From the NCBI RefSeq assembly GCF_026283925.1, contig NZ_JAPDPF010000006.1:124001-188000 (forward strand): DNA of 64,000 nucleotides, written 5' to 3'. The position numbers and the translations under genes were made by a program. Under the pieces are notes generated by a model. It made no database searches. It had not been told where the DNA came from and saw only the letters and a program-made list of their open reading frames with translations. Of this stretch, positions 12,789 through 29,804 are shown one piece after another (position 1 is the first letter of the stretch; each line of letters starts with the position of its first letter). Source of the DNA: Dyella halodurans (GTDB taxonomy: Bacteria > Pseudomonadota > Gammaproteobacteria > Xanthomonadales > Rhodanobacteraceae).

Positions 12789-12835
12789 ATGGTGGGCCCA
12801 CCAGGATTCGAACCTGGAACCAAAGGATTATGAGT
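12789..12835 (-). repeat. Left attachment site (attL): 47-bp copy of the tRNA 3' end
   Basis: These 47 bases are identical to 29728-29774, which is the 3' part of the intact CAU tRNA gene (from within the anticodon loop through the T arm to CCA). After 12835 the sequence leaves the tRNA, so this is not a functional tRNA but the duplicated target left by integration. With the integrase at 28600-29643 it defines a 16.9-kb island. Confidence 0.9.
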
Positions 12836-13126: not shown

Positions 13127-13546
13127 ATGGACATCATCGACAAGCAAGCGCGGTCGAGGCTGATGGGGCGAATACGCGGCAAGGACACCAAGCCGGAGAT
13201 AGTGGTACGCAGCTTGGCACACCGACTTGGATTTCGATTCCGCCTTCACCGACGGGAGCTTCCAGGCAGCCCTGATCTTGTCTTTCCTGGCTCGCGGAAA
13301 GTTGTGTTTGTTCACGGCTGCTACTGGCATAGACACCCCGGCTGTCGGCTGGCCTATGAGCCCAAATCGAACGTGGCATTCTGGACAAAGAAGTTCGCCG
13401 CGAACGTGACCCGTGATGCGAAGGCGCTGGCTGATCTGAAGGGCCAGGGCTGGGATACCTTGGTAATATGGGAATGTGAGGCCAAGGATCCGCAACTCGT
13501 TGCCTCGCGTCTCTCAGCGTACCTCGGACAATCTGGCGACCAATGA
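13127..13546 (+). CDS. vsr: Very short patch repair endonuclease (Vsr)
   Basis: The 139-residue protein is a full-length Vsr mismatch endonuclease, which nicks at T:G mismatches produced by deamination of 5-methylcytosine. The family residues are in place: catalytic Asp50 in GSPDLVFP, the block VVFVHGCYWHRHPGC (about 59-73) containing the catalytic and zinc-binding His/Cys residues, FWTKKFAANVTRD, and Cys117 in VIWECE. It is the first gene of the island operon and its stop overlaps the start of the cytosine methyltransferase by 4 bases (ATGA), the usual vsr-dcm partnership. It protects the host from the mutagenic cost of C5 methylation. Confidence 0.95.
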   Translation: MDIIDKQARSRLMGRIRGKDTKPEIVVRSLAHRLGFRFRLHRRELPGSPDLVFPGSRKVVFVHGCYWHRHPGCRLAYEPKSNVAFWTKKFAANVTRDAKALADLKGQGWDTLVIWECEAKDPQLVASRLSAYLGQSGDQ

Positions 13547-15033
13547 AGATCAACACAGCAGTTCGGCAGGCCAAACTGGATCGCCTGCGCAGCGGCGAAA
13601 CGCCGCGAGCACTCGAGCTATGCTCGGGCTGCGGCGGCATGTCGCTCGGAATGCAGGCTGCTGGCTTCGAGCTGCTGGGTCACATAGAGTTCGACGACAC
13701 CGCTGCCGCCAGCTACGCGTTGAACTTCAAGCCGCCTATCGAGAAGAAAAGGGTCGCGTGGAGCCAGTCACGAGACATGGTGGTCTCGGATCCCGTCACG
13801 CTGGCTTCAGAGATCGGCCTAAAGGGTGATGTCGTGAAGCACTTCGACGTACTGGCCGCCGGCCTGCCGTGTCAGGCCTTCGCCCGGATTGGTCGGTCTA
13901 AGCTTCGTTCGGTGACCGGCGATGACGTCGCCTACGTCAACGATCCACGCGCCAAACTTTATCAGCGCTTCCTTCAGTACGTCGAAGCGGTCCAGCCCGT
14001 TGCCATCTTGATCGAGAATGTCCCGGACATCCTCAACCACGGCGGCCACAACGTGCCGGAGGAGATCTGTGAGACGCTGGAAACACTGGGCTACAGCGCC
14101 CGCTACACGCTTCTGAATGCCGCCTATTACGGCGTCCCTCAGATGCGCGAACGACTGTTTCTGGTCGCCATCGACAGTTCGCTCGGTCTCGTGCCTGGCT
14201 TTCCTGAGCCAAGCCACGCGGCCAAACTACCCTCGGGATACGAAAGCGCACGTTCTGTTGCACTCAAACATGTGCCCGCGGAGGGCTCACATTTCGCTGG
14301 TATACCACAAGCCCGGCAAGGCCTTCCGAAGGCGGTGTCGGTCAAGGAGGCCCTTGGGGATCTGCCACGTATCAGGGAGCATTTCTCAGCGCCGACCGAA
14401 ATGCGGCGGCGCAAGCTGACCGATCGATTGCCGTATGCCAGTTCCGCAGACCTGAGCGACTACGCAAAGAAGATGCGGGCCTGGCCTAGCCTCCAGGTAG
14501 CTACTCCCGACACTGATGGTCACGTGGTGCGCATCACGCCCAGGGACTTCGAGATCTTCCGTCGCATGAAGCATGGCGGCGATTACCCGCACGCGATTAC
14601 TGTAGCCGAGAAGATCTTTACCGAGCAGCTTGAGGCCCTCGCGGTTCGTCCCCGCCAAAATTCGGAGAAGTGGGCGTCGCTACGTGCAAGGTGCGTCCCA
14701 CCCTACGATCCGAATAAGTTCCCAAACAAGTGGTGGAAGCTGAACCCGGCGACGCCGTCGCGCACGTTGACCGCCCATATGGGCAAGGACACCTACTCTC
14801 ACATTCACTGGGACAGCGCACAGAAGCGGACGGTCTCGGTGCGTGAGGCGGCCAGGCTTCAGTCCTTCCCCGATAACTTCCGCTTCGCCGGAGCCATGAA
14901 CGCAGCCTTCCGGCAAATCGGAAATGCCGTACCGCCTCTGCTCGCCGAGGCGGTAGCTAGGCGCCTGAAACAGGATCTTCTGCAGATACCTGTATCGCAG
15001 ATCGAGTCAGCGGAAGATTTCAAGGTCGCCTGA
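13543..15033 (+). CDS. DNA (cytosine-5-)-methyltransferase
   Basis: The 496-residue C5-cytosine methyltransferase has all core motifs in order: motif I ALELCSGCGGMSLGMQ (24-38, SAM binding), motif IV with the catalytic Cys110 in GLPCQAF, motif VI IENV (157-160), motif VIII QMRERLF, and the C-terminal motifs RTLTAHMGKDTYSH, REAARLQSFPDNF (IX) and QIGNAVPP (X). The target-recognition region is the variable stretch around residues 240-390; its specificity cannot be read from sequence. It overlaps vsr by 4 bases and precedes the ATPase gene. It is the modification arm of the restriction-like operon. Confidence 0.95.
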   Translation: MKINTAVRQAKLDRLRSGETPRALELCSGCGGMSLGMQAAGFELLGHIEFDDTAAASYALNFKPPIEKKRVAWSQSRDMVVSDPVTLASEIGLKGDVVKHFDVLAAGLPCQAFARIGRSKLRSVTGDDVAYVNDPRAKLYQRFLQYVEAVQPVAILIENVPDILNHGGHNVPEEICETLETLGYSARYTLLNAAYYGVPQMRERLFLVAIDSSLGLVPGFPEPSHAAKLPSGYESARSVALKHVPAEGSHFAGIPQARQGLPKAVSVKEALGDLPRIREHFSAPTEMRRRKLTDRLPYASSADLSDYAKKMRAWPSLQVATPDTDGHVVRITPRDFEIFRRMKHGGDYPHAITVAEKIFTEQLEALAVRPRQNSEKWASLRARCVPPYDPNKFPNKWWKLNPATPSRTLTAHMGKDTYSHIHWDSAQKRTVSVREAARLQSFPDNFRFAGAMNAAFRQIGNAVPPLLAEAVARRLKQDLLQIPVSQIESAEDFKVA

Positions 15034-15106
15034 TTTGCCGTGATGGCTGCCGCCGGATCGTGGGGGCCGGTCATTGAACCTGGCTGTAGCGTGTGGGGAG
15101 GGGTCT

Positions 15107-15166
15107 ATGGCAGCAGTTGCAGGGAAGGAAATTGCTCAGCCTAACGAGGGGCTTGCCGCGCCGTGA
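15107..15166 (+). CDS. Putative 19-residue leader peptide translationally coupled to the ATPase gene
   Basis: In the 129-base gap after the methyltransferase, an ATG at 15107 is preceded by an almost ideal Shine-Dalgarno stretch (GGGGAGGGG, 3 nt upstream). It opens a frame of 19 codons (MAAVAGKEIAQPNEGLAAP). Its TGA stop (15164-15166) overlaps the GTG start of the ATPase (15163-15165) as GTGA. The ATPase GTG itself has a poor ribosome site. The arrangement suggests that ribosomes finishing the short frame reinitiate on the ATPase. A real peptide function is not implied. Confidence 0.5.
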   Translation: MAAVAGKEIAQPNEGLAAP

Positions 15167-16632
15167 AGTACGAGACCAATCCGCCTGACGCTGCCTCACT
15201 GATGATGTCAGCCCGTAGCTTCGGGAACTACGATGTACCTGCCGCTCTAGCCGATCTGATCGACAACAGCATCAAGGCGGGCGCGCGCGAAATTACGTTG
15301 ACGTGCCGCTACAACGATGGCGACCCTGAAATCCGGATTCGGGATGACGGCCGCGGCATGTCCGGTCGGGAGCTCAGAGATGCCATGCGTCCGGCCAGCA
15401 GCAACCCGCTGAAGGAACGGTCGCCGGATGATTTGGGCCGGTTCGGCTGGGGAATGAAATCCGCATCCTTCTCCCAGTGCGCGCGGCTTACCGTGATCAG
15501 TCACCGAGGCGAAGACTTGACGGGTTGCGTTTGGGACCTGACCAATGTCGAAGGTTGGCGGATGGGCATCCTCGACGAACAAGAGCTTGTCGCCATGGCC
15601 TCGCCGGACCTCAGGGCGAAGGATGGCGTTGAGGTGGTGTGGTCGAACTGCGACCGCCTGTCCGAGAACAACACTGTCACCCAGGCTGAATTCAACGCCC
15701 TGATGGTTCACGCGGGCAATCGCCTTGCAATCATCTTCCATCGCTATCTCGCGGGCGAAGTCCGTGGAAAGCGGCTGACTATCCGCCTTAACGGCAGAAA
15801 GATCGAGGCCGTTGATCCGTTCTATCGCGACCATGAGGCGACGCAGCAGCTCGAATCGGAGTCGTTGGAGATCGCCGGGCGGACAATCGACATCCAGCCC
15901 TTCATCCTCCCCCATTATTCGAAGCTTCTACCGAATCAGTACGATCAGCTGGGCGGAGAGGAAGGATTTCTCCGAAATCAGGGCTTCTACGTCTATCGCA
16001 ACCATCGCCTCATTATCAGTGGCACTTGGTTCAGACTGCTGCGGCACGGCGAACTGTCCCAGTTGGTCCGGGTTAGGGTGGACATCCCCAACGCGCTCGA
16101 CCACGTCTGGAAGATCACCATCGACAAGTCGGACGCACAGCTCCCCGCCGCACTGCGTAATCGCCTGCGCCAGCTCGTCGATGGCCTGCGGCGTCGATCC
16201 GCGCGCGTCTATCGGTCCCGCGGCGGTCGGCTTGACCGCCCGGGCACGACCTCTGTCTGGAGCCGCCATTCCCGTGGTGGCGAGGTGCGCTACACCATCA
16301 ACCGGGCGCATCCCGTGATCGATGCGCTTCTCGATACCGGTGACGACAAGCAAAGGCAGGCCGCCAGCGCCGCATTGAAGATCATTGAACAGGCCTTCCC
16401 GGTTGCCGCTTTCAGTCAGGACACAGCGCGGGAGCCCGACGCCATCCATCAGACGCTGACCGACCCGGTAGCCTTCAGGGCCGACCTGAACGCAGCTCTC
16501 CCTCTGCTTCTTATGCAGGTAGATGGAGATTTCGCCGCTCTGGAGAATCTGTTGCGCGTCACCGAACCGTGGTGCGAGGCCTGGGGTGCCGCCGAGGCCG
16601 TTCTTAAGGAAAAGGGGTGGACTAATGCGTGA
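15163..16632 (+). CDS. MORC/MutL-like GHKL ATPase of a restriction system
   Basis: The 489-residue protein has an N-terminal GHKL (HATPase_c_3) module: the N-box AALADLIDNSIKAG (27-40, with Asn35 for Mg-ATP; the usual Glu is Asp31), the lid DDGRGM (61-66) and the glycine-rich LGRFGWGMKSASFSQC (91-106). This is the pattern of MORC/MutL-type paralogues. A transducer-like S5 domain follows, with conserved basic residues (DKSDAQLPAALRNRL). Prokaryotic members were linked to restriction-modification loci with Z1 and nuclease genes by Iyer, Abhiman and Aravind (2008). It starts at a GTG coupled to the short leader frame and its 3' end overlaps the Z1 gene by 8 bases. The probable role is an ATP-driven DNA clamp or switch. 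Confidence 0.88.
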   Translation: MKYETNPPDAASLMMSARSFGNYDVPAALADLIDNSIKAGAREITLTCRYNDGDPEIRIRDDGRGMSGRELRDAMRPASSNPLKERSPDDLGRFGWGMKSASFSQCARLTVISHRGEDLTGCVWDLTNVEGWRMGILDEQELVAMASPDLRAKDGVEVVWSNCDRLSENNTVTQAEFNALMVHAGNRLAIIFHRYLAGEVRGKRLTIRLNGRKIEAVDPFYRDHEATQQLESESLEIAGRTIDIQPFILPHYSKLLPNQYDQLGGEEGFLRNQGFYVYRNHRLIISGTWFRLLRHGELSQLVRVRVDIPNALDHVWKITIDKSDAQLPAALRNRLRQLVDGLRRRSARVYRSRGGRLDRPGTTSVWSRHSRGGEVRYTINRAHPVIDALLDTGDDKQRQAASAALKIIEQAFPVAAFSQDTAREPDAIHQTLTDPVAFRADLNAALPLLLMQVDGDFAALENLLRVTEPWCEAWGAAEAVLKEKGWTNA

Positions 16633-19312
16633 TCTAAGTGCCGAGCTTGCATTCCTGACGCTGAGCATCGGGAAGAAGTACGCTGACGAAGTCAACAGCG
16701 GCCGCGCCCTGCCTCAGGGCGCGATCGCCACAGAGGTCGACGCTTCGCCCTTCAAGTTCGACGATGAGGAAAAGGCTGAGGTGTTGCGTGCGCTCGAGGC
16801 CAGCTTCACGACCACCCAAACCCGCGGCTATTCGGTCTTCAGCGACTTCAAGCCATGGCTGAAGGACAGCAGCGGCTCGATCGACTTCTACTACTGGAAC
16901 CGGCTGAAGCGGTACTACCTAGAAGGGGGCTCGCTTCCGGCGCCGGTGGTCGCCACCCTGGACGCCGTCACAGACCAGATCCTCGACTTCTCCGGCAACC
17001 CGCTTGCTGCGGGACTCGGGTCCCGCCGCGGCATGGTCATGGGCCATGTGCAGTCCGGCAAGACGACCAACTACTCGGCCCTGATCTGTAAAGCAGCGGA
17101 CGCCGGCTATCGCACCATCATCCTGCTGGCCGGAATCACCAACTCCTTGCGCACTCAGACCCAGGAGCGCCTGGACGAGACTTTCATCGGCAAGAAGTCG
17201 GTCTTCCACGCCCTGGCCGCCGAGCCCCTGCCGATCCTCACCTACTCCATCAAGAAGCGCTTCCCGGCCTATGGGACCTCGCGTGACAAGGACTTCACCC
17301 GCGATCCCGGCGGCGGCGTTGTCTTCAGCCTGGCGGCACACAACGAGCCGATCATCTTCGTCTGCAAGAAGAACACGGCCCCGCTGTCCAAGCTGCGCGA
17401 CTGGCTGATCGAGCAGAGCCACGGTCAGGTCATCACCTCCCCCCTTCTGCTAATCGATGACGAGGCCGACAACGCCTCGATCAACACGTCGAAGAACCCA
17501 AAGGCGACCACGGCGATCAATGCCGTTATCCGCGAGATCATGGCGCTGTTCGAGCGGCGGTCCTACGTTGGCTACACGGCCACCCCGTTCGCCAACATCT
17601 TCATCGACCCCGACACCAACAACGAGATGCTGAAGGACGATCTGTTCCCGAAGCACTTCATCAAGACGCTTGATCCTCCCAACACCTACGTCGGCGCCTC
17701 CCGTGTGTTCGCCGACAAGGGCGACCTGCGCGAGCCGATGGTCGAGGTGGTGAAGGACTATGTACCGCACCTGCCTCTGAACCATAAGGCGGACCACCCC
17801 GTGGCTCTGCCACCATCGCTGCTGACGGCGATCCGTGTGTTCGTGCTGACGCGCGCCATCCGCATTCTGCGCGGTCAGGGGCGTCAGCACTGCACGATGA
17901 TGATCAATGTGAGTCGCTTCAACGCCATCCAGGAGAAGGTTCACGGTGAGGTCTACATATACCTCCAGACGCTGCAGAACGCCGCCGCGATGGCCATGGG
18001 ACCTGATGCGCTGAGCGATCTTGTGATCTCCGAGTTCAGGGACGACTTCGAACGTGAGTTCGGCGACGGCGATGAGACCTTCGACGCGGTCCGTACAGTG
18101 CTGGCGGAGGCGGCGCGGGTCCAGCCCCTGACCGTGAACATGAAGGGGGGCGCGCTCGACTATCGCGCCCACCGCGAGAATGGCCTGCACGTCATCGCCA
18201 TCGGCGGCCTCGCCCTCTCGCGGGGCCTGACGCTCGAAGGTCTCACGGTCTCCTACATCCTGCGCAACACCGCCGCCTCCGACACCCTGATGCAGATGGC
18301 CCGGTGGTTCGGCTACCGGCCGGGCTATGAGGACGTCTGCCGGGTCTACCTCCCGCAGATCGCCCTTAACCACTATCGCGAGATCAACAGCGCCATCGAG
18401 GAGCTGCGCGACGAGGTGCGTCTGATGCACGACCTGGAAATGACGCCCGAGCATTTCGGGCTAAAGGTCCGCGAGAGCCCGACGGCGATCCGCATCACTG
18501 CCGCCAACAAGATGCGCACCGCCACCCAGATGACGATCGCCCAGGACTATTCTGAGCGGCATCTGGAAGGCTACATCCTTCCGAACAGTCAGGACGTAAA
18601 CCAAGCAAACCTGGAAGCAGCCCGCGCCTTCGTCGCCACGCTAGGCGCGCCCTCCGCCGACCTATCGACGCGCCAAGCCAAGGTCTGGGAACGGACGGCC
18701 GGGCGAGCGGTGATGACTCTGCTCAAGGCCTTCCGGTTCTCACCGGCGCATGGCGACCTAGGGCCGATCAGCGGTAACGTCAGCCTGTTCGAGGACTACT
18801 TCAATGACCGCCTCCGGGACGAGATGAAGGAATGGGACGTCGCCATTCCGCATCCGGCCGGCGGCGAGCCGATCACAAATGTCCTGCGGCCGGACCTGTC
18901 CTTCCCTCTGCGTGCGCGGAACTCGGGTGACGTCGTCGAAGGCGGCTTCCGGGTCACGCAGGGGCGCAATCGCGTTGCCGATCCCGACGATGCCCAGATC
19001 GGGCTCAACAAGGACCAGCTTGCGGCCGGCATGCAGGAACGCAAAGACAAGGTTCGTCGCGGCGACAAGGCTTTCTGCGCCCAGCGCACCCGACCGCTGC
19101 TGCTGATCCATGTCTTCACGACGGACGGGACCACGAAGCACCTGAAGCTTAGCGGCCCGATCGTCACCCTCAGCTTCTGCCTGCCCTCGACGAAGAAGCG
19201 CACGCCGGAGCGGAGCTACCAAGTCAACGCCGTGTATCGGAAGCAGATCGAGGCGGCACTCGCCCGCGAGGACGAGGACGACGACGACGCCGTGCAGGCC
19301 GGGGAAATCTGA
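16625..19312 (+). CDS. Z1-domain ATPase/helicase-like protein
   Basis: The 895-residue protein belongs to the Z1 family of superfamily-2-related ATPases from restriction loci. Motifs: Walker A GHVQSGKTTN (140-149), Walker B/DEAD-like LLLIDDEADNAS (274-285), motif III-like YVGYTATPFANIFID (314-328), and C-terminal Z1 blocks GLALSRGLTLEGLTVSY and TLMQMARWFGYRPGYEDV, which carry the arginine fingers. The ATG at 16625 has GGGTGGA upstream and overlaps the ATPase stop; a longer frame to 16523 lies inside the ATPase gene and is rejected. It ends in an acidic tail (EDEDDDDAV). It overlaps the next gene by one base (TGATG). Likely the motor of the complex. Confidence 0.9.
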   Translation: MRDLSAELAFLTLSIGKKYADEVNSGRALPQGAIATEVDASPFKFDDEEKAEVLRALEASFTTTQTRGYSVFSDFKPWLKDSSGSIDFYYWNRLKRYYLEGGSLPAPVVATLDAVTDQILDFSGNPLAAGLGSRRGMVMGHVQSGKTTNYSALICKAADAGYRTIILLAGITNSLRTQTQERLDETFIGKKSVFHALAAEPLPILTYSIKKRFPAYGTSRDKDFTRDPGGGVVFSLAAHNEPIIFVCKKNTAPLSKLRDWLIEQSHGQVITSPLLLIDDEADNASINTSKNPKATTAINAVIREIMALFERRSYVGYTATPFANIFIDPDTNNEMLKDDLFPKHFIKTLDPPNTYVGASRVFADKGDLREPMVEVVKDYVPHLPLNHKADHPVALPPSLLTAIRVFVLTRAIRILRGQGRQHCTMMINVSRFNAIQEKVHGEVYIYLQTLQNAAAMAMGPDALSDLVISEFRDDFEREFGDGDETFDAVRTVLAEAARVQPLTVNMKGGALDYRAHRENGLHVIAIGGLALSRGLTLEGLTVSYILRNTAASDTLMQMARWFGYRPGYEDVCRVYLPQIALNHYREINSAIEELRDEVRLMHDLEMTPEHFGLKVRESPTAIRITAANKMRTATQMTIAQDYSERHLEGYILPNSQDVNQANLEAARAFVATLGAPSADLSTRQAKVWERTAGRAVMTLLKAFRFSPAHGDLGPISGNVSLFEDYFNDRLRDEMKEWDVAIPHPAGGEPITNVLRPDLSFPLRARNSGDVVEGGFRVTQGRNRVADPDDAQIGLNKDQLAAGMQERKDKVRRGDKAFCAQRTRPLLLIHVFTTDGTTKHLKLSGPIVTLSFCLPSTKKRTPERSYQVNAVYRKQIEAALAREDEDDDDAVQAGEI

Positions 19313-20295
19313 TGGACGAGAGCGACTGGCGCGATATTGCCACCGCAGCCGATCCGCATGCCGACAATGTGCGGCGCGCTTCCTCCACGCATCCGCTCGA
19401 TTTCTTCCGCGGCCGCAACCATGCTGGCCAGTACATCTTCGCGCTGGCTGCGAACGATAGCTGCAGCGAGCTGCCGAAGCCGCCCAGGCTCAATGGCATC
19501 GACGTCTCGGTGGAGCGGCGATCGGGCGATGGCGCCCGGCTTGTGCTGACACTGGAGGACCGCGACCAGTTCGACATCTTCCGTGCGCTGTGCGGCCATT
19601 TACTCGACGCCACGGCGGACCATCCGCGCGGCGCAAATGGGCCGGGACTCCGGCTAGTCCTTCGTCGTCTGGCCGACTGGCACAACATGCTCCGCCGACG
19701 CCGCGAAGGCCTGCTAACGACCGAAGAGATCATCGGCCTTGTCGGCGAGCTGCTGTTTCTTCGGGATGAGGTCATGTCGCGCGCCGGCGCGGCGGACAGC
19801 ATAGCGGCTTGGCGAGGCGCACATCGCGACGAGCAGGACTTCGCCATCGGCGCTTGGCAGATTGAGGTGAAAACCCAGCTCTCGACCTCGGACCGTCGGC
19901 TGCTGATCTCCTCGGAAGCGCAGCTCGACACAGCGGGCAGCCGACTCCTGCTGTGCCACCAAGCTGTCGCCCGCGCGCCGGCCGGCGGCGGCACTGTCTC
20001 GCTCAATGCCTTGATCGATGGCCTCAATCTCGCCTTCGCCGCCGCTGGGCCACCGGTCCTGGAAGAGTTCGAGGCGGCACTTGAAGCCTGCCGCTACGTC
20101 CGGCGCGAGGAGTACGACGAGCCGGAATGGCTGCTGACCGACCGACGGCTCTTCGAGGTACGCGACGACTTCCCGCGCCTGACACCGGCCGTGCTGCCGA
20201 ACGGCGTCCATGCGGTCTCCTACTCGATCCTGCTCAGTGCTTGTGAGAGCTTCGCCGTGGACCTCGATCACACGCTGGGAGAGGTCTTCTCGTGA
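19312..20295 (+). CDS. PD-(D/E)XK motif protein (DUF4420-like)
   Basis: The 327-residue protein has a nuclease-like core: a conserved glutamate in EEIIGLVGELLFLRDEV (Glu146), then Asp176 in EQDFAIGAWQIEVKT and Glu185-x-Lys187, i.e. D-(8)-ExK of the PD-(D/E)XK superfamily. The spacing and the GELLFL helix match the DUF4420 family seen next to Z1 genes. It is encoded between the Z1 and AIPR genes with 1- and 4-base overlaps, so its dosage is coupled to theirs. It is the strongest candidate for the cleaving subunit of the MORC-Z1 system; cleavage has not been shown from sequence. Confidence 0.85.
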   Translation: MDESDWRDIATAADPHADNVRRASSTHPLDFFRGRNHAGQYIFALAANDSCSELPKPPRLNGIDVSVERRSGDGARLVLTLEDRDQFDIFRALCGHLLDATADHPRGANGPGLRLVLRRLADWHNMLRRRREGLLTTEEIIGLVGELLFLRDEVMSRAGAADSIAAWRGAHRDEQDFAIGAWQIEVKTQLSTSDRRLLISSEAQLDTAGSRLLLCHQAVARAPAGGGTVSLNALIDGLNLAFAAAGPPVLEEFEAALEACRYVRREEYDEPEWLLTDRRLFEVRDDFPRLTPAVLPNGVHAVSYSILLSACESFAVDLDHTLGEVFS

Positions 20296-22400
20296 GCGGC
20301 CCCGACCTCGACGAGGCTTACGACCGATTCTGGGACGATCTGTTGTTCGAGGCGGAGGCCTCGGCCGAACCCCAGGCCGCGGCCTTTTTCCGGCTCTACT
20401 CTCGCATTGCCGCCGACAATGGCGACTGTATCGACTTGACGTACACGCCAGCCCGTAACGAGGGTCGTGGCGCCTATCAGGTTGATGGGATTACGCTCGA
20501 ACGCGACCGCGGCGACCTCTTTCTGGCCATCTCCGATTTCCGTTCCAGCCGGAAGCTGGAAACCCTCAACGCCGCCCAGATCGATGCCCTGTTCGAACGT
20601 ATCCGGCGGTTCTGTCACCTAGCGGTCCAGCCCACCTTCATTAACGCCGTCGACGAGACCAGCCCGGCCTTCCAGGCGGCTTGGCCGATCTTCGACGGCC
20701 GGAGTCAGATCAAGCGCATCCGCGTTGTCGCCTTCTCCAACGCGCGACTGTCCACGCGCCGGAAGCCGGAAATGACCGGCGAGGTGCTTGGCGTCCCATT
20801 CGTCTGCAGCGTGCTCGACTTCGCGCGCTATGCTGGCATCCTGAGCGCCAAAGGCGGTGCCGAGCCGATCGAGATCGACGTCACGGCCGTCAACGGTGCG
20901 CCGCTTCCGTGCCTCCCCGCTCATAGCATCGACGGCGAACAAGCCTCCTATTTAGTCGCCGTTCCCGGAACTTTCCTGGCGGAAATCTATGGCCTTTATG
21001 GCGCGAAGCTGCTGGAGCAGAATGTTCGCACCTTCCTTCAGGCCCGTACCAAGGTGAATGCCGGCATCATCCGGACGCTTGAGAACGCGCCGGAGATGTT
21101 CTTCGCCTACAACAACGGCTTGACCGCGACGGCCGCCGGAATCACCACCGCGTCCTTGCCGGGCGGCGGCCTTGGCATCGCCTCAATCGAGAACCTTCAG
21201 ATCGTCAACGGCGGCCAGACGACCGCCTCGATTCTGTACGCCAGCGACAGTCAGCGGAAGGACCGGAAGGCAGATCTCAGCCGCGTTTATGTACAGATGA
21301 AGCTGTCGGTGGTGAACCCCGATCGGCTCGACCAAGTCGTGCCGCTGATCTCGCGCTACGCCAATACGCAGAACAAGATCAGCGAAGCTGATTTCTTTTC
21401 CAGCCACCCAATCCACCTGGTGCTTGAGCGCATCTCCCGCAACCTTTCGGCACCGCCGAAGGCCGGCTCGCTTTCAGGCTCGAAGTGGTTCTATGAGCGC
21501 GCGCGCGGCCAGTACCGTGACCGGCTCGCCAACGGCAGCCAAGCCGAGCGCAAACGATTCGAGCTGGAATTCCCCCGCGAGCAGTTGATCGACAAGACCG
21601 AACTGGCGAAGTTCGAGGTCACCTTCGAGTGCAGGCCGCACATCGTCAGCCGCCTGGCGCAGAAATGTTTCCTCGACTACGCGGGACGGATCGGAAAGGC
21701 CTGGGGGGCTTCCGAAGCCCAGTTCAACGAGCACTGGTTCAGAACCGTCGTGGCGGAAGCCATCGTCTTCCGCACCGTTGACCGGCTGGTCGCCCGCGCG
21801 GACTGGTATCAACAGGATCGCGGTTTCAAGTTGCAGATCGTGACCTATGCCATAGCGTGGCTGATCCACCATCTCCAGATACGGGGCCAGGAGATCGACC
21901 TGGATGTCATCTGGCAGCGGCAGGAGCTTCCTGCCGAAATCGCGGACGCCCTGGCGCAGATCGCGCCTCAGGTCGCTTGCACCATTAAGGACGCGCCGCC
22001 GCAGATGAAGAACGTCGGCGAATACTGTAAGCAGCAGGCCTGCTGGGCCGTGGTGGCAGCTTCGCACTATGTCTTCGACGATCAGTTGGAAAGTGTGCTC
22101 ATCGATCACCTCGAGTCCGAACAACTCCGGAAGGCGGCGCTCGAGGCACAGAAGGTCGACCAGGAGATTGATTTCGATCGAGTTCTGGCGACGATGCTGG
22201 CCGACACGGAGCCCTACCTCAGCTTCGCCCGCGGCCACGGCCTCCTGACGCCCAAGTCGGAGGCCGCCATCAAGCGCCTAACCCGCGGCGACATCCGGCT
22301 TCCCACTTCGGAGCGCAATGCGCTGAAATACATGCTTGAGAAGATGGCGAAGGCGGGTTTTGCGCTGCCCCGGGCATCTGATCAACAACCATCCTCCTGA
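20292..22400 (+). CDS. AIPR-family protein (abortive-infection phage-resistance type)
   Basis: The 702-residue protein carries the AIPR signature in its middle: LLEQNVRTFLQARTKVNAGI, then FAYNNGLTATAAGI, then IENLQIVNGGQTTASILYA (about residues 235-320), followed by VPLISRYANTQNKISEADFF. AIPR proteins are found in phage-defence loci and in MORC-Z1 restriction systems; the biochemical role is not established, though nuclease or DNA-binding activity has been proposed. The start overlaps the PD-(D/E)XK gene by 4 bases. It is the last of the tightly overlapping genes; the next gene starts 87 bases downstream. Confidence 0.88.
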   Translation: MSGPDLDEAYDRFWDDLLFEAEASAEPQAAAFFRLYSRIAADNGDCIDLTYTPARNEGRGAYQVDGITLERDRGDLFLAISDFRSSRKLETLNAAQIDALFERIRRFCHLAVQPTFINAVDETSPAFQAAWPIFDGRSQIKRIRVVAFSNARLSTRRKPEMTGEVLGVPFVCSVLDFARYAGILSAKGGAEPIEIDVTAVNGAPLPCLPAHSIDGEQASYLVAVPGTFLAEIYGLYGAKLLEQNVRTFLQARTKVNAGIIRTLENAPEMFFAYNNGLTATAAGITTASLPGGGLGIASIENLQIVNGGQTTASILYASDSQRKDRKADLSRVYVQMKLSVVNPDRLDQVVPLISRYANTQNKISEADFFSSHPIHLVLERISRNLSAPPKAGSLSGSKWFYERARGQYRDRLANGSQAERKRFELEFPREQLIDKTELAKFEVTFECRPHIVSRLAQKCFLDYAGRIGKAWGASEAQFNEHWFRTVVAEAIVFRTVDRLVARADWYQQDRGFKLQIVTYAIAWLIHHLQIRGQEIDLDVIWQRQELPAEIADALAQIAPQVACTIKDAPPQMKNVGEYCKQQACWAVVAASHYVFDDQLESVLIDHLESEQLRKAALEAQKVDQEIDFDRVLATMLADTEPYLSFARGHGLLTPKSEAAIKRLTRGDIRLPTSERNALKYMLEKMAKAGFALPRASDQQPSS

Positions 22401-22487
22401 CGCTCCTGCAGCTCCGGCTTGTGCTCTCTCTCCGACAATTCGCAGAGATCGCCTTACCTCGAGACCCATACTTCGGATCACAAGAGC

Positions 22488-23666
22488 ATGCTGAAAACCG
22501 TCCCATTCGATCGGCTGAGAACCACCGATCTGCACGTGGATGCCCACTACACCGGCCGACGAAGTGGCAACGCGGGCGATGACCCTCTGCCAGCTTTGTT
22601 GAGTGTCGACAGTCAGGGCGGGTTCCGAAAGCGAGGCAAAACTCAGGGCCAGCTGACGATGCTTGTCCTGACCTCGAGCATGGATGATCCGGACTGGCCC
22701 GACACTCTGGACCGCGAGAGCGGAGTCTTCACGTATTACGGCGACAACAAGAAACCGGGACGCGAGCTTCACGAGACCGGCCGTCACGGCAACTTCATTC
22801 TGCGCAAGATCTTCGCGGCAGCGCGAGCTGGTGCAGCTGGCCGGGCCGAGGTACCTCCAATTTTCCTTTTCGCTGCCACGGGCGTCTGGCGGGACGTCCA
22901 GTTCCTTGGTTTAGCCGTCCCAGGTGCATCCGACCTCGATGCGTCTGAAGAGTTAGTGGCGATCTGGCGGATTGCGGGTGGTGAGCGCTTCCAGAATTAT
23001 CGAGCACGTTTCACGGTCCTCGATGCGCCCACAGTCAGCCGTGCATGGATTGACAGCATCATCAACGGTCAACGTGATGATCACCTCGCTCCCGAGGCTT
23101 GGCGACGATGGATCAGGGGCGGCCGCAGAACGCCACTTTTCGCAAACCGGTCGCTCGAATGGCGCAACAGCCGCGAACAACTGCCTCAGGACCGCGAAGG
23201 TAGGGCAATAATCCAGACGCTGCAGTCTCACTTCACAGGAAGGCCCCACGCCTTCGAGCACTGTGCAGTCGCCATCGCCAAGCTGATGATCCCGGACATC
23301 GCGACATTGGACGTGACTCGCCCATCAAGGGACGGTGGTCGTGACGCGATAGGTCAGATGCGCCTCGGTCGCGGCGCGAGTGCCATCCTCGTGGACTTCG
23401 CTCTTGAAGCAAAGTGCTACACGAACAGGGCGGTCGGCGTCCGTGACATGTCGCGTCTGATCTCCCGCCTGCGACACCGTCAGTTCGGTGTGCTCGTGAC
23501 GACTACTTGCGTTGACCGGCAGGCCTACAAAGAGATCAAAGAAGACGGCCACCCCATCGTAATCATCTCTGCTGTGGATATTGTTGAACTCTTCCGTGCC
23601 AGCGGTCGGGGCACGGCTGACTTGATGTCAGCTTGGCTGCATGAGCAGTTTCCGGTTGAGCCCTGA
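22488..23666 (+). CDS. AspBHI/Mrr-like modification-dependent restriction endonuclease
   Basis: The 392-residue protein has an N-terminal region ([19 protein letters not shown] ... QGGFRKRG ... [18 protein letters not shown]) that resembles the SRA-like recognition domain of AspBHI, a 5-methylcytosine-dependent enzyme. Its C-terminal Mrr-type catalytic domain has Asp282/Asp286 in RDGGRDAIG and Glu307-x-Lys309 in ALEAKCY. The ATG at 22488 begins right at the domain; the frame extends to a GTG at 22419. It follows the AIPR gene by 87 bases on the same strand and probably belongs to the operon. A modified-base-cutting enzyme next to a C5 methyltransferase needs explaining (see findings). Confidence 0.8.
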
Positions 23667-26547: not shown

Positions 26548-27078
26548 ATGGAGATGTGTATGCCCCACCGCAAGCACAGTGAGCTCAACGAAAGCCTGGC
26601 GCTCATATTTGAGGGAATACGTCGCCTGAAGGCGGCGTTTCCGAATCGCGAATTCACCATCGATGGTCGCTTGGTCGGAGACATCGGCGAGGTGATTGGC
26701 GAGCTAGAGTATGACCTCATACTAGATGAGGTCTCCCAGCCCGACCATGACGCTACGACCTCCAACGGTCGAAAAGTCCAAATCAAGGCCACCTTTCAAC
26801 AGGCGCTCACCTTCAAGTCCACGCCGGACTATTACCTCGGCTTTAAGCTCTACCGGGATGGCACGTTCGAAGAAATCTTCAACGGCCCCGGAAGCCTCAT
26901 CGAGCAGAGGTACGCACATCGCAAGGGCCTAGGGACGAAGCTTCTATCCTTTCCGAACTCAGAGCTGCGAAAGCTCTCGGAGGGAGTTGCACCAGGAGAG
27001 CGGATCCCGAAGCGACAGAGTAAATGGGCGACAGAGGCGAACCAGCAGGACGGCATGGCCTGTGTAGTGGGAATTTGA
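26548..27078 (+). CDS. Nuclease-like protein (DUF6998-like, PD-(D/E)XK suspected)
   Basis: The 176-residue product shows the pattern IDGRLVGDIGEVIGELEYDL (residues 42-61), HDATTSNGRKVQIKATFQ (about 73-90) and YYLGFKLYRDGTFEEIFNGPG. It resembles the DUF6998 family. The order Glu in a GE helix, Asp in HDA, then QxK in VQIKAT is what a PD-(D/E)XK nuclease core with Gln for Glu would give. The ATG at 26548 has GGGA close by; a second ATG at 26560 has GGAG 6 nt upstream and may be the real start. It is followed 39 bases later by another nuclease-like gene. Function unknown; probably restriction- or repair-related. Confidence 0.6.
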   Translation: MEMCMPHRKHSELNESLALIFEGIRRLKAAFPNREFTIDGRLVGDIGEVIGELEYDLILDEVSQPDHDATTSNGRKVQIKATFQQALTFKSTPDYYLGFKLYRDGTFEEIFNGPGSLIEQRYAHRKGLGTKLLSFPNSELRKLSEGVAPGERIPKRQSKWATEANQQDGMACVVGI

Positions 27079-27117
27079 AGAAAGACCACCAGCTCGTCCA
27101 GTCGAAAAGGAGTTGCC

Positions 27118-27615
27118 GTGAGCAGAGCCTCGGAAAAGCAGCTCGATGCTGCGCTTGACGCGGAACTGAAGTCCAATCCAGGTTTTGCCGACTGGTTTGT
27201 CAGCCGCACCAAGTTCGCTGGACTCGGGGCGACATACCTCTGGTCTCGTTCCAACCATCCGTGGGGCTCCGTCGCGCACGCGACTGTCGACGAAGCGACT
27301 GGTCAAACGGTTACGTCCATCAAGGAAAGCGAGACAGATGTGCTCGTGGTCTTCGAGACTCCTGATGGTATGCGGTTTGCGCTCCACATCGAAAACAAGA
27401 CCGCGGCGGGATCGTTCGAGCCTCTTCAGCCCGAGCTCTACGCTCCCAGGGCGCGACAGTGGATGGGCAACCCAAAATATAGGAGTTACACCGACTATGA
27501 GACTGTTCTAGTCGCCCCCAAGGTCTTCTATGCGAGAAATGAGGCCGCGTGCGGCTTCTTCGATAGGTACGTGTCCCATGAGGAAATCGGACTGTTCATT
27601 CCGCTGTTCGCGTAG
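27118..27615 (+). CDS. Small PD-(D/E)XK nuclease-superfamily protein
   Basis: The 165-residue protein contains SETDVLVVFETPDGMRFALH followed by IENKTAAGSFEPLQPELYAP (about residues 67-107): Asp, about 20 residues, then ExK (ENK), with a conserved Gln and Tyr after it, as in many small PD-(D/E)XK superfamily proteins. The GTG start at 27118 has a clear AAGGAG 5 nt upstream. It pairs with the 26548 gene and the two are bracketed by AAATTTGCGAC palindromes. No partner methyltransferase adjoins it. Its role is unknown; a solitary nuclease accessory to the island defence is possible. Confidence 0.6.
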   Translation: MSRASEKQLDAALDAELKSNPGFADWFVSRTKFAGLGATYLWSRSNHPWGSVAHATVDEATGQTVTSIKESETDVLVVFETPDGMRFALHIENKTAAGSFEPLQPELYAPRARQWMGNPKYRSYTDYETVLVAPKVFYARNEAACGFFDRYVSHEEIGLFIPLFA

Positions 27616-27804: not shown

Positions 27805-28011
27805 CTAGCGCGCGGGTCGCTTCCCGGCATCGCGCGAGCCAGGGCAGTACCAGCCATCCTCGCCGGCCAGGTCGGGAAGGTCGCTCGTGTCGATGCCGCT
27901 GTCCCGCTTCGCGGCCAGCCGCGCCTTTGCCTCGGCGCTCAGACTGACCGGCTTATCCGGGTCCAACGTGTACCTCACGGTTTTCCCGTCCGACATGGTG
28001 ACGATCCTCAT
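27805..28011 (-). CDS. Small hypothetical protein coupled to a VbhA-like antitoxin gene
   Basis: The 68-residue product (MRIVTMSDGKTVRYTLDPDK...) has a central part LSAEAKARLAAKRDSGIDTS then DLPDL. This resembles the SxEdIDTSDIPEL linker of small antitoxin-like proteins encoded next to toxin genes. Its ATG overlaps the stop of the upstream gene as ATGA (28008-28011), so the two are translationally coupled. No toxin gene is next to it. The function is not known. Confidence 0.5.
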   Translation of the reverse strand: MRIVTMSDGKTVRYTLDPDKPVSLSAEAKARLAAKRDSGIDTSDLPDLAGEDGWYCPGSRDAGKRPAR

Positions 28012-28445
28012 TCGTGTTTCAGGGCGACAAGCTCGGCCAGGCTGATTTCCCCGGCGATGTAGCGCCGGGCGCGGTCCTTGGTGGCATCGTCAACCTTGAG
28101 CCCTTCCAGCTCCGCCGTGGCCACCGCGCAATTGAAGTATTCCTGACGGCGTTGCCGTTCGGCGTCGCTAATTTCGATCACATCCAGCCCGCCGCCTGGT
28201 AGCGTGCGCACCAGGTTGTCCTGATCGTCCAGGCCCACGTAGCCTCCTTCATCGCGCATCTTGGCGGCAAGGGCGTCCGATTCGGGGTTCGGCCCCATCA
28301 TCCGTACCGCAAACAGATCCATGAAAATTCTCTGCTCGTCGTCATTGAGCTGGTCGGCGTCGAATTCCCCGCGCAATGCCGCCTCTACTCGCCCTAGCGC
28401 GCAACTAGCTTCATTTCGCATGACGTGCCTCATCGGAATTGGCAT
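28008..28445 (-). CDS. VbhA-like antitoxin-domain protein
   Basis: The 145-residue protein ends in a VbhA-type antitoxin domain: CAVATAELEGLKVDDATKDR then ARRYIAGEISLAELVALKHE. It contains the Fic-inhibition motif [S/T]xxxE[G/N] as TAELEG. In VbhA/VbhT pairs this helix blocks the Fic AMP-transferase active site. The N-terminal about 100 residues are unrecognised. No Fic gene follows, only a coupled 68-residue protein, so this is either an orphan antitoxin that guards against incoming Fic toxins or the leftover of a pair. Confidence 0.65.
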   Translation of the reverse strand: MPIPMRHVMRNEASCALGRVEAALRGEFDADQLNDDEQRIFMDLFAVRMMGPNPESDALAAKMRDEGGYVGLDDQDNLVRTLPGGGLDVIEISDAERQRRQEYFNCAVATAELEGLKVDDATKDRARRYIAGEISLAELVALKHE

Positions 28446-28599: not shown

Positions 28600-29643
28600 C
28601 TACCTTTTCCGCAATGAATCAAGGCGTCCCACTAGATCCTCCGCTCGAAGGTGAGTGTAACGCTTCAACATTTGCATGGACTTGTGGCCACTGATGGCTG
28701 CAACCTCCTGATCGCTGAGCCCACCCTCAACCAGTCTGCTCACAGCCTCGTGACGCAAATCGTGAAATTTCAGGTTGCTCACACCCAGCTCGGACTTGAT
28801 CGTCAGCCAAGCCTTGTTGAAGTTGTAAGGTCTGCGCCTCCCATCTCTACCTGGCTCTCCGAAGAAGACCAAATCGCAGTCCTTCGGCCGCACAGGATTC
28901 GCCAGGGCCGCCGCTAGCACCTCTTTGGCGTGCTGCGTCAGCGGAACGGTGCGTGCACTGTCGTTCTTCGTTTTGCTCAGACGGACAATTCGACGATGCA
29001 GATCAATCTGCCCCCTAGTCAGTCCTGTGATCTCCGATGATCGCATTCCAGTCTCGAGCGCCACATCGAAGATCCAGCGAAGCATGGGGTTCGAGTGCGC
29101 AGTGACCGCCTTGCGCAACCGCCGCTCTTCTTCTTTTGAAAGGCGACGATCGCGGCCTTCGCCGACGCTGGGCTTCCGAATGTTGGCAACAGGGTTTTGG
29201 ACAAGACCTATTCGCCACTCGCGGATAGCCGTCGTAAATAAGTGGCTTGCCAAAGCCAACTCCAGTCTGACGGTATTGGGCTTCTTGCCTTCTCCTAGCC
29301 GATGGTCGCGATAGCGAGCGACCAAGTCGGCATTGACTGCTGCCAACGAGTACTTCCCGAAAAATAGGCGGAGCGAGACGGCTTTTAGCCGCTCAGCACG
29401 CTGCGTGGTTTCCTTCTTCGTTGGGGTGACTTCTGCGAGGTAGCGGTCGAGCGCCGTTCCAAATGTCATGCGCTCAGATGGCGCGCGCTCGATGAAGACG
29501 CCACGGACCATTTCGTCTTCTGTGCGGCGCGCCCAATCTTCTGCATCACGCTTGGTTCGAAAAGTCTTCGCAGATGTCGGCCATCCTTGTTTGCGGATGA
29601 CTGCTTTCCATGTGCCAGAGGGAGTCTTTACGAGGGTCGCCAT
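28600..29643 (-). CDS. Tyrosine-type site-specific integrase of the island
   Basis: The 347-residue phage-type integrase has an N-terminal arm-binding domain (TPSGTWKAVIRKQGWPTSAK), a SAM-like core-binding region and a C-terminal catalytic domain. The catalytic residues are visible in ALETGMRSSEITGL (Arg), HDLRHEAVSRL (His/Arg), SGHKSMQMLKRYTH (His and the nucleophilic Tyr). The ATG at 29643 (MATLVKTPSG) gives the family N-terminus; the frame is open to 29700. It sits 85 bases from the tRNA attachment site and points away from it, the usual arrangement in tRNA-integrated islands. The 3' end (28600) is followed by a 154-base gap to the VbhA-like gene. Confidence 0.93.
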   Translation of the reverse strand: MATLVKTPSGTWKAVIRKQGWPTSAKTFRTKRDAEDWARRTEDEMVRGVFIERAPSERMTFGTALDRYLAEVTPTKKETTQRAERLKAVSLRLFFGKYSLAAVNADLVARYRDHRLGEGKKPNTVRLELALASHLFTTAIREWRIGLVQNPVANIRKPSVGEGRDRRLSKEEERRLRKAVTAHSNPMLRWIFDVALETGMRSSEITGLTRGQIDLHRRIVRLSKTKNDSARTVPLTQHAKEVLAAALANPVRPKDCDLVFFGEPGRDGRRRPYNFNKAWLTIKSELGVSNLKFHDLRHEAVSRLVEGGLSDQEVAAISGHKSMQMLKRYTHLRAEDLVGRLDSLRKR

Positions 29644-29727
29644 GGTACGCCGCGCTTCAGTGGTGTACTGAAACTGTACCTCGGACCAAGGGACTTGCAA
29701 GTGGATTTCCGAAAAACCCTTAAATTT

Positions 29728-29774
29728 ATGGTGGGCCCACCAGGATTCGAACCTGGAACCAAAGGATTATGAGT
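29728..29774 (-). repeat. Right attachment site (attR) within the tRNA
   Basis: This 47-bp sequence is identical to 12789-12835. It covers the tRNA from the anticodon loop to CCA plus one base. The 5' part of the tRNA (29775-29804) exists only here, so the ancestral chromosome continues to the right of this site and the island lies to its left. Confidence 0.92.
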
Positions 29775-29804
29775 CCTCTGCTCTAACCGTTGAGCTATAG
29801 GCCC
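29729..29804 (-). tRNA. tRNA with CAU anticodon (Ile2 or elongator Met)
   Basis: The minus strand folds as a complete cloverleaf with encoded CCA: acceptor GGGCCTA pairs with TGGGCCC, D arm GCTCAACGGTTAGAGC, anticodon stem GAGGA/TCCTT with loop CTCATAA (anticodon CAT), T arm CCAGG-TTCGAAT-CCTGG. The pattern GACTCATAATC with TTGG after it resembles the lysidine-modified tRNA-Ile2 of other proteobacteria more than elongator tRNA-Met, but the two cannot be separated without the modification enzyme test. The 3' 46 bases are shared with attL and are restored by the island's integration. Confidence 0.93.

Follow-up and report, generated by a model that had tools for sequence, protein, structure and literature searches.

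Why would an operon that carries a DNA cytosine-5 (C5) methyltransferase also carry an enzyme predicted, from sequence, to cut the product of that methyltransferase? The question is raised by seven genes in a 64,000-nucleotide stretch of Dyella halodurans DNA (contig NZ_JAPDPF010000006.1, positions 124,001 to 188,000; hereafter the window). They form a putative defence operon that sits on a mobile DNA element. We propose, tentatively and at a little under an even chance, that the operon acts as two opposite locks, by which unmarked DNA and wrongly marked DNA would both be rejected. The original prediction of a seven-gene operon is confirmed: the genes lie on one strand with tight spacing, and their identities are borne out by Pfam and NCBIfam profile matches, as follows.

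13127..13546, + strand: vsr, very-short-patch repair endonuclease (PF03852, 94.9 bits; TIGR00632, 127 bits, above cut-off; alignment to E. coli Vsr 1cw0)
13543..15033, + strand: DNA C5-methyltransferase (PF00145, 188 bits; GLPCQA, IENVP, QMRERLF and GNAVPP motifs found)
15163..16632, + strand: MORC-type GHKL ATPase, MzaB-like, GTG start (PF13589, 99.8 bits; MzaB, 315 bits, under the cut-off of 850)
16625..19312, + strand: Z1 protein (PF10593, 226 bits)
19312..20295, + strand: DUF4420 PD-(D/E)XK nuclease, MzaD-like
20292..22400, + strand: AIPR protein, MzaE-like (PF10592, 301 bits; PF22879, 78 bits; model pLDDT, predicted local distance difference test, 88)
22488..23666, + strand: AspBHI-like (MspJI-family) endonuclease (PF18062, 215 bits; PF04471, 46 bits; frame also open from TTG 22419)

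An exchangeable methyltransferase beside a stable core

The methyltransferase was found in all 40 well-flanked loci of the core, that is, ATPase, Z1, DUF4420 nuclease and AIPR (12 of 52 core loci were omitted for short flanks), and in 4/4 additional plasmid loci fetched from 17 plasmid records at coverage of at least 80%. Between loci it is replaced while the core stays nearly unchanged. On the core tree (FastTree, several long branches flagged) the raw count is 10 changes of methyltransferase cluster, among them three single-member clusters (our loci L031, L052 and L084) that sit on long branches and in which apparent exchange could be divergence instead. Such replacement is at odds with the plain type II scheme originally proposed, in which the methyltransferase marks self and the nuclease cuts the same sequence unmarked. 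It likewise fits poorly with classical restriction-modification, where the core would have a fixed recognition sequence, the methyltransferase would protect this sequence and no other, and a passenger role would fall to the AspBHI-like gene, a reading that we consider unlikely. Co-divergence of methyltransferase and nuclease as matched pairs was tested and not found; Mantel p-values disregard sequence kinship, and L089 is common to the long- and short-methyltransferase groups. Under the two-lock proposal, the methyltransferase, rather than the core, would set which DNA the core spares, and the two together would act against DNA without the mark.

The core appears intact, and conserved residues in family alignments bear out the motifs described originally. 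In the MORC ATPase the GHKL motif residues and the S5 motif (GFYVYRNHRLI, starting at residue 274; G274, Y276, Y278, R279 and R282 invariant) are conserved, as are, in the Z1 protein, the Walker A, DDEAD, TATP and DTLMQMARWFG residues (the last spanning D553 to G563, with D553, Q557, R560, F562 and G563 invariant), in 36 sequences each. E146, D176, E185 and K187 of the DUF4420 nuclease are invariant in 38 sequences, with middling but consistent fold matches. In AIPR the NNG, QIVNG, ANxQN and WxYERxRG motifs are invariant (43 sequences); weak likenesses tie its N-terminal part to a nuclease fold whose catalytic positions have decayed, and its conserved part to a ParB/Srx-type domain. The abortive action originally ascribed to AIPR was taken from the family name and is not supported. 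Genes that match nothing in Pfam come after AIPR in L128 (11785-12507) and L131 (12076-13539) as the next gene and in L130 (12926-15634) as the second; accessory genes may have a slot at the 3' end of the core.

The AspBHI-like enzyme and wrongly marked DNA

The mechanism first proposed omitted the oddest part of the operon, the AspBHI-like gene. Its protein aligns with AspBHI (4oc8) across query residues 33-407 and has the MspJI/AspBHI architecture, an SRA-like N-domain with a modified-base pocket followed by Mrr_cat, so that it is predicted to depend on modified cytosine and to cut 5-methylcytosine (5mC) DNA. The pocket residues W93, D95, Y106 and D109 are invariant in 29/29 family members, as are D305, D309, E330 and K332, which we take to be the catalytic Mrr residues; three fragments (L098, L123 and L125) are omitted from these and the Mantel counts. 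The equivalent of N63 is variable and that of Y83 is Y or F, the pocket numbering following excerpts of PMC4499157. As to the AspBHI context preference YS(mC)NS, S41-R42-Q43 of AspBHI correspond to D-S-Q in the window protein, and the loop positions vary across the family. Short C5-methyltransferases whose presumed catalytic cysteine lies in a PEC sequence adjoin AspBHI-like genes in L097, L098, L113, L115, L118, L124, L125, L127 and L084.

The operon may thus reject both kinds of DNA, because the pairing of core and methyltransferase is joined by an enzyme that probably cuts 5mC DNA marked in the wrong place; self-marked DNA would resist it. Three observations weigh against this proposal and give room to the improbable alternative of separate modules: the nearest relatives have no AspBHI gene, EcoRII adjoins some methyltransferases, and some AspBHI genes occur without a methyltransferase. 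The 23/32 count is a lower bound, since L091 ends at a contig edge and the methyltransferases of L121 and L122 lie outside the stretch read; of the 20 plasmid records that matched AspBHI, 10 had coverage of at least 80%, and 9 of these were fetched (H2, a near copy of H1, was omitted, as were the other 10, which were partial). Separate modules are countered by the constant presence of the methyltransferase in core loci and, in the window, by genes that share a strand and lie close together.

The AspBHI-like enzyme might instead mainly cut the host chromosome upon arrival of a foreign C5-methyltransferase, thereby excluding competitors and not phage. McrBC-mediated killing is a precedent, and the 18 AspBHI-bearing genomes hold few other apparently intact C5-methyltransferases (G000 C23, G1199 C47 and G919 C10); G1100 has a second one close to the locus, and G864 and G967 have short fragments. 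We nevertheless think this policing role very unlikely: with fragments counted, a C5-methyltransferase match away from the locus occurs in 3/14 sampled-family genomes versus any match in 62/149, a small difference in raw counts. Of the genome samples, 3/5 were centred on genomes with an AspBHI gene already known.

The mobile element

The element is bounded by a direct repeat that copies the 3' end of its tRNA target.

12789..12835, no strand: left 47-bp direct repeat, attL-like, copy of the tRNA-Met 3' end (47/47 identity with 29728-29774)
28600..29700, - strand: tyrosine recombinase, the element's integrase (PF00589, 107 bits)
29728..29774, no strand: right 47-bp repeat, attR-like, inside the tRNA-Met gene
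29729..29804, - strand: tRNA-Met, the insertion target (ARAGORN)

It also carries, at 26548-27615 (+), a DUF6998 protein and next to it a 165-aa protein that matched nothing in Pfam, NCBIfam or PADLOC, and a VbhA-type antitoxin domain (28008-28445, -), with no partner toxin seen among the scanned element open reading frames (ORFs).

Relation to known systems

Predicted antiviral operons of this type are already in the literature (cited here from excerpts). With the MORC operons that Iyer, Abhiman and Aravind 2008 (PMC2292703) placed in their third class, the window operon shares a GHKL+S5 protein with the MORC motif, an SF2 (superfamily 2) protein with DThhQXuRhFG and an E-D-ExK nuclease; all three sequence marks tested are present, which upholds the lineage originally proposed. 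DCM, Vsr and AIPR occur there too, whereas sections 4 and 5 and the figure legends name neither an AspBHI/MspJI gene nor methyltransferase exchange. Miller 2022 (PMC9523054) describes an identical set of genes under the name of a type II putative defence system, remarks that it resembles validated MZA and asks for more work on function; the excerpt does not mention an AspBHI-like gene. The original prediction is supported for gene identities, lineage, motifs and restriction-like defence; its claim of a 'poorly described system', the plain type II scheme and AIPR abortive action are not supported, and it gave the AspBHI-like gene no part in the mechanism.

Modification-dependent AspBHI/MspJI endonucleases have SRA-like and Mrr-type nuclease domains in common with the window enzyme, and the mspJI gene adjoins a C5-methyltransferase gene believed inactive (PMC3874153, PMC4499157, PMC12707154). 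CglI and NgoAVII differ, as excerpted, in having three genes, none GHKL or AIPR, and another nuclease, an R-protein with PLD and B3 domains (PMC4267653).

Two further candidates were rejected. The core of DISARM is DrmA/DrmB; a PADLOC scan of the seven proteins gave neither, and DrmMII only among methyltransferase profiles (best 25 of 60 matches for the methyltransferase protein). MZA, reportedly defined by Gao et al. 2020 as mzaABCDE, has homologs of MzaB, C, D and E in identical order in the window operon, which differs in its C5-methyltransferase and Vsr. Identity with MZA in the sense of the NCBIfam equivalogs is ruled out by scores far under the cut-offs (MzaB 315/850, MzaC 455/1500, MzaD 103/420 and MzaE 291/1050 bits) and by the lack of a sigma-factor gene alongside, no sigma domain (MzaA) being found in the seven operon proteins or eleven scanned neighbouring ORFs. 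Close MZA homologs occur on the Thalassospira plasmid L084 (score/cut-off: MzaE 1057/1050, B 824/850, C 1408/1500, D 363/420, A 487/800), where an AspBHI-like gene follows directly and then a C5-methyltransferase.
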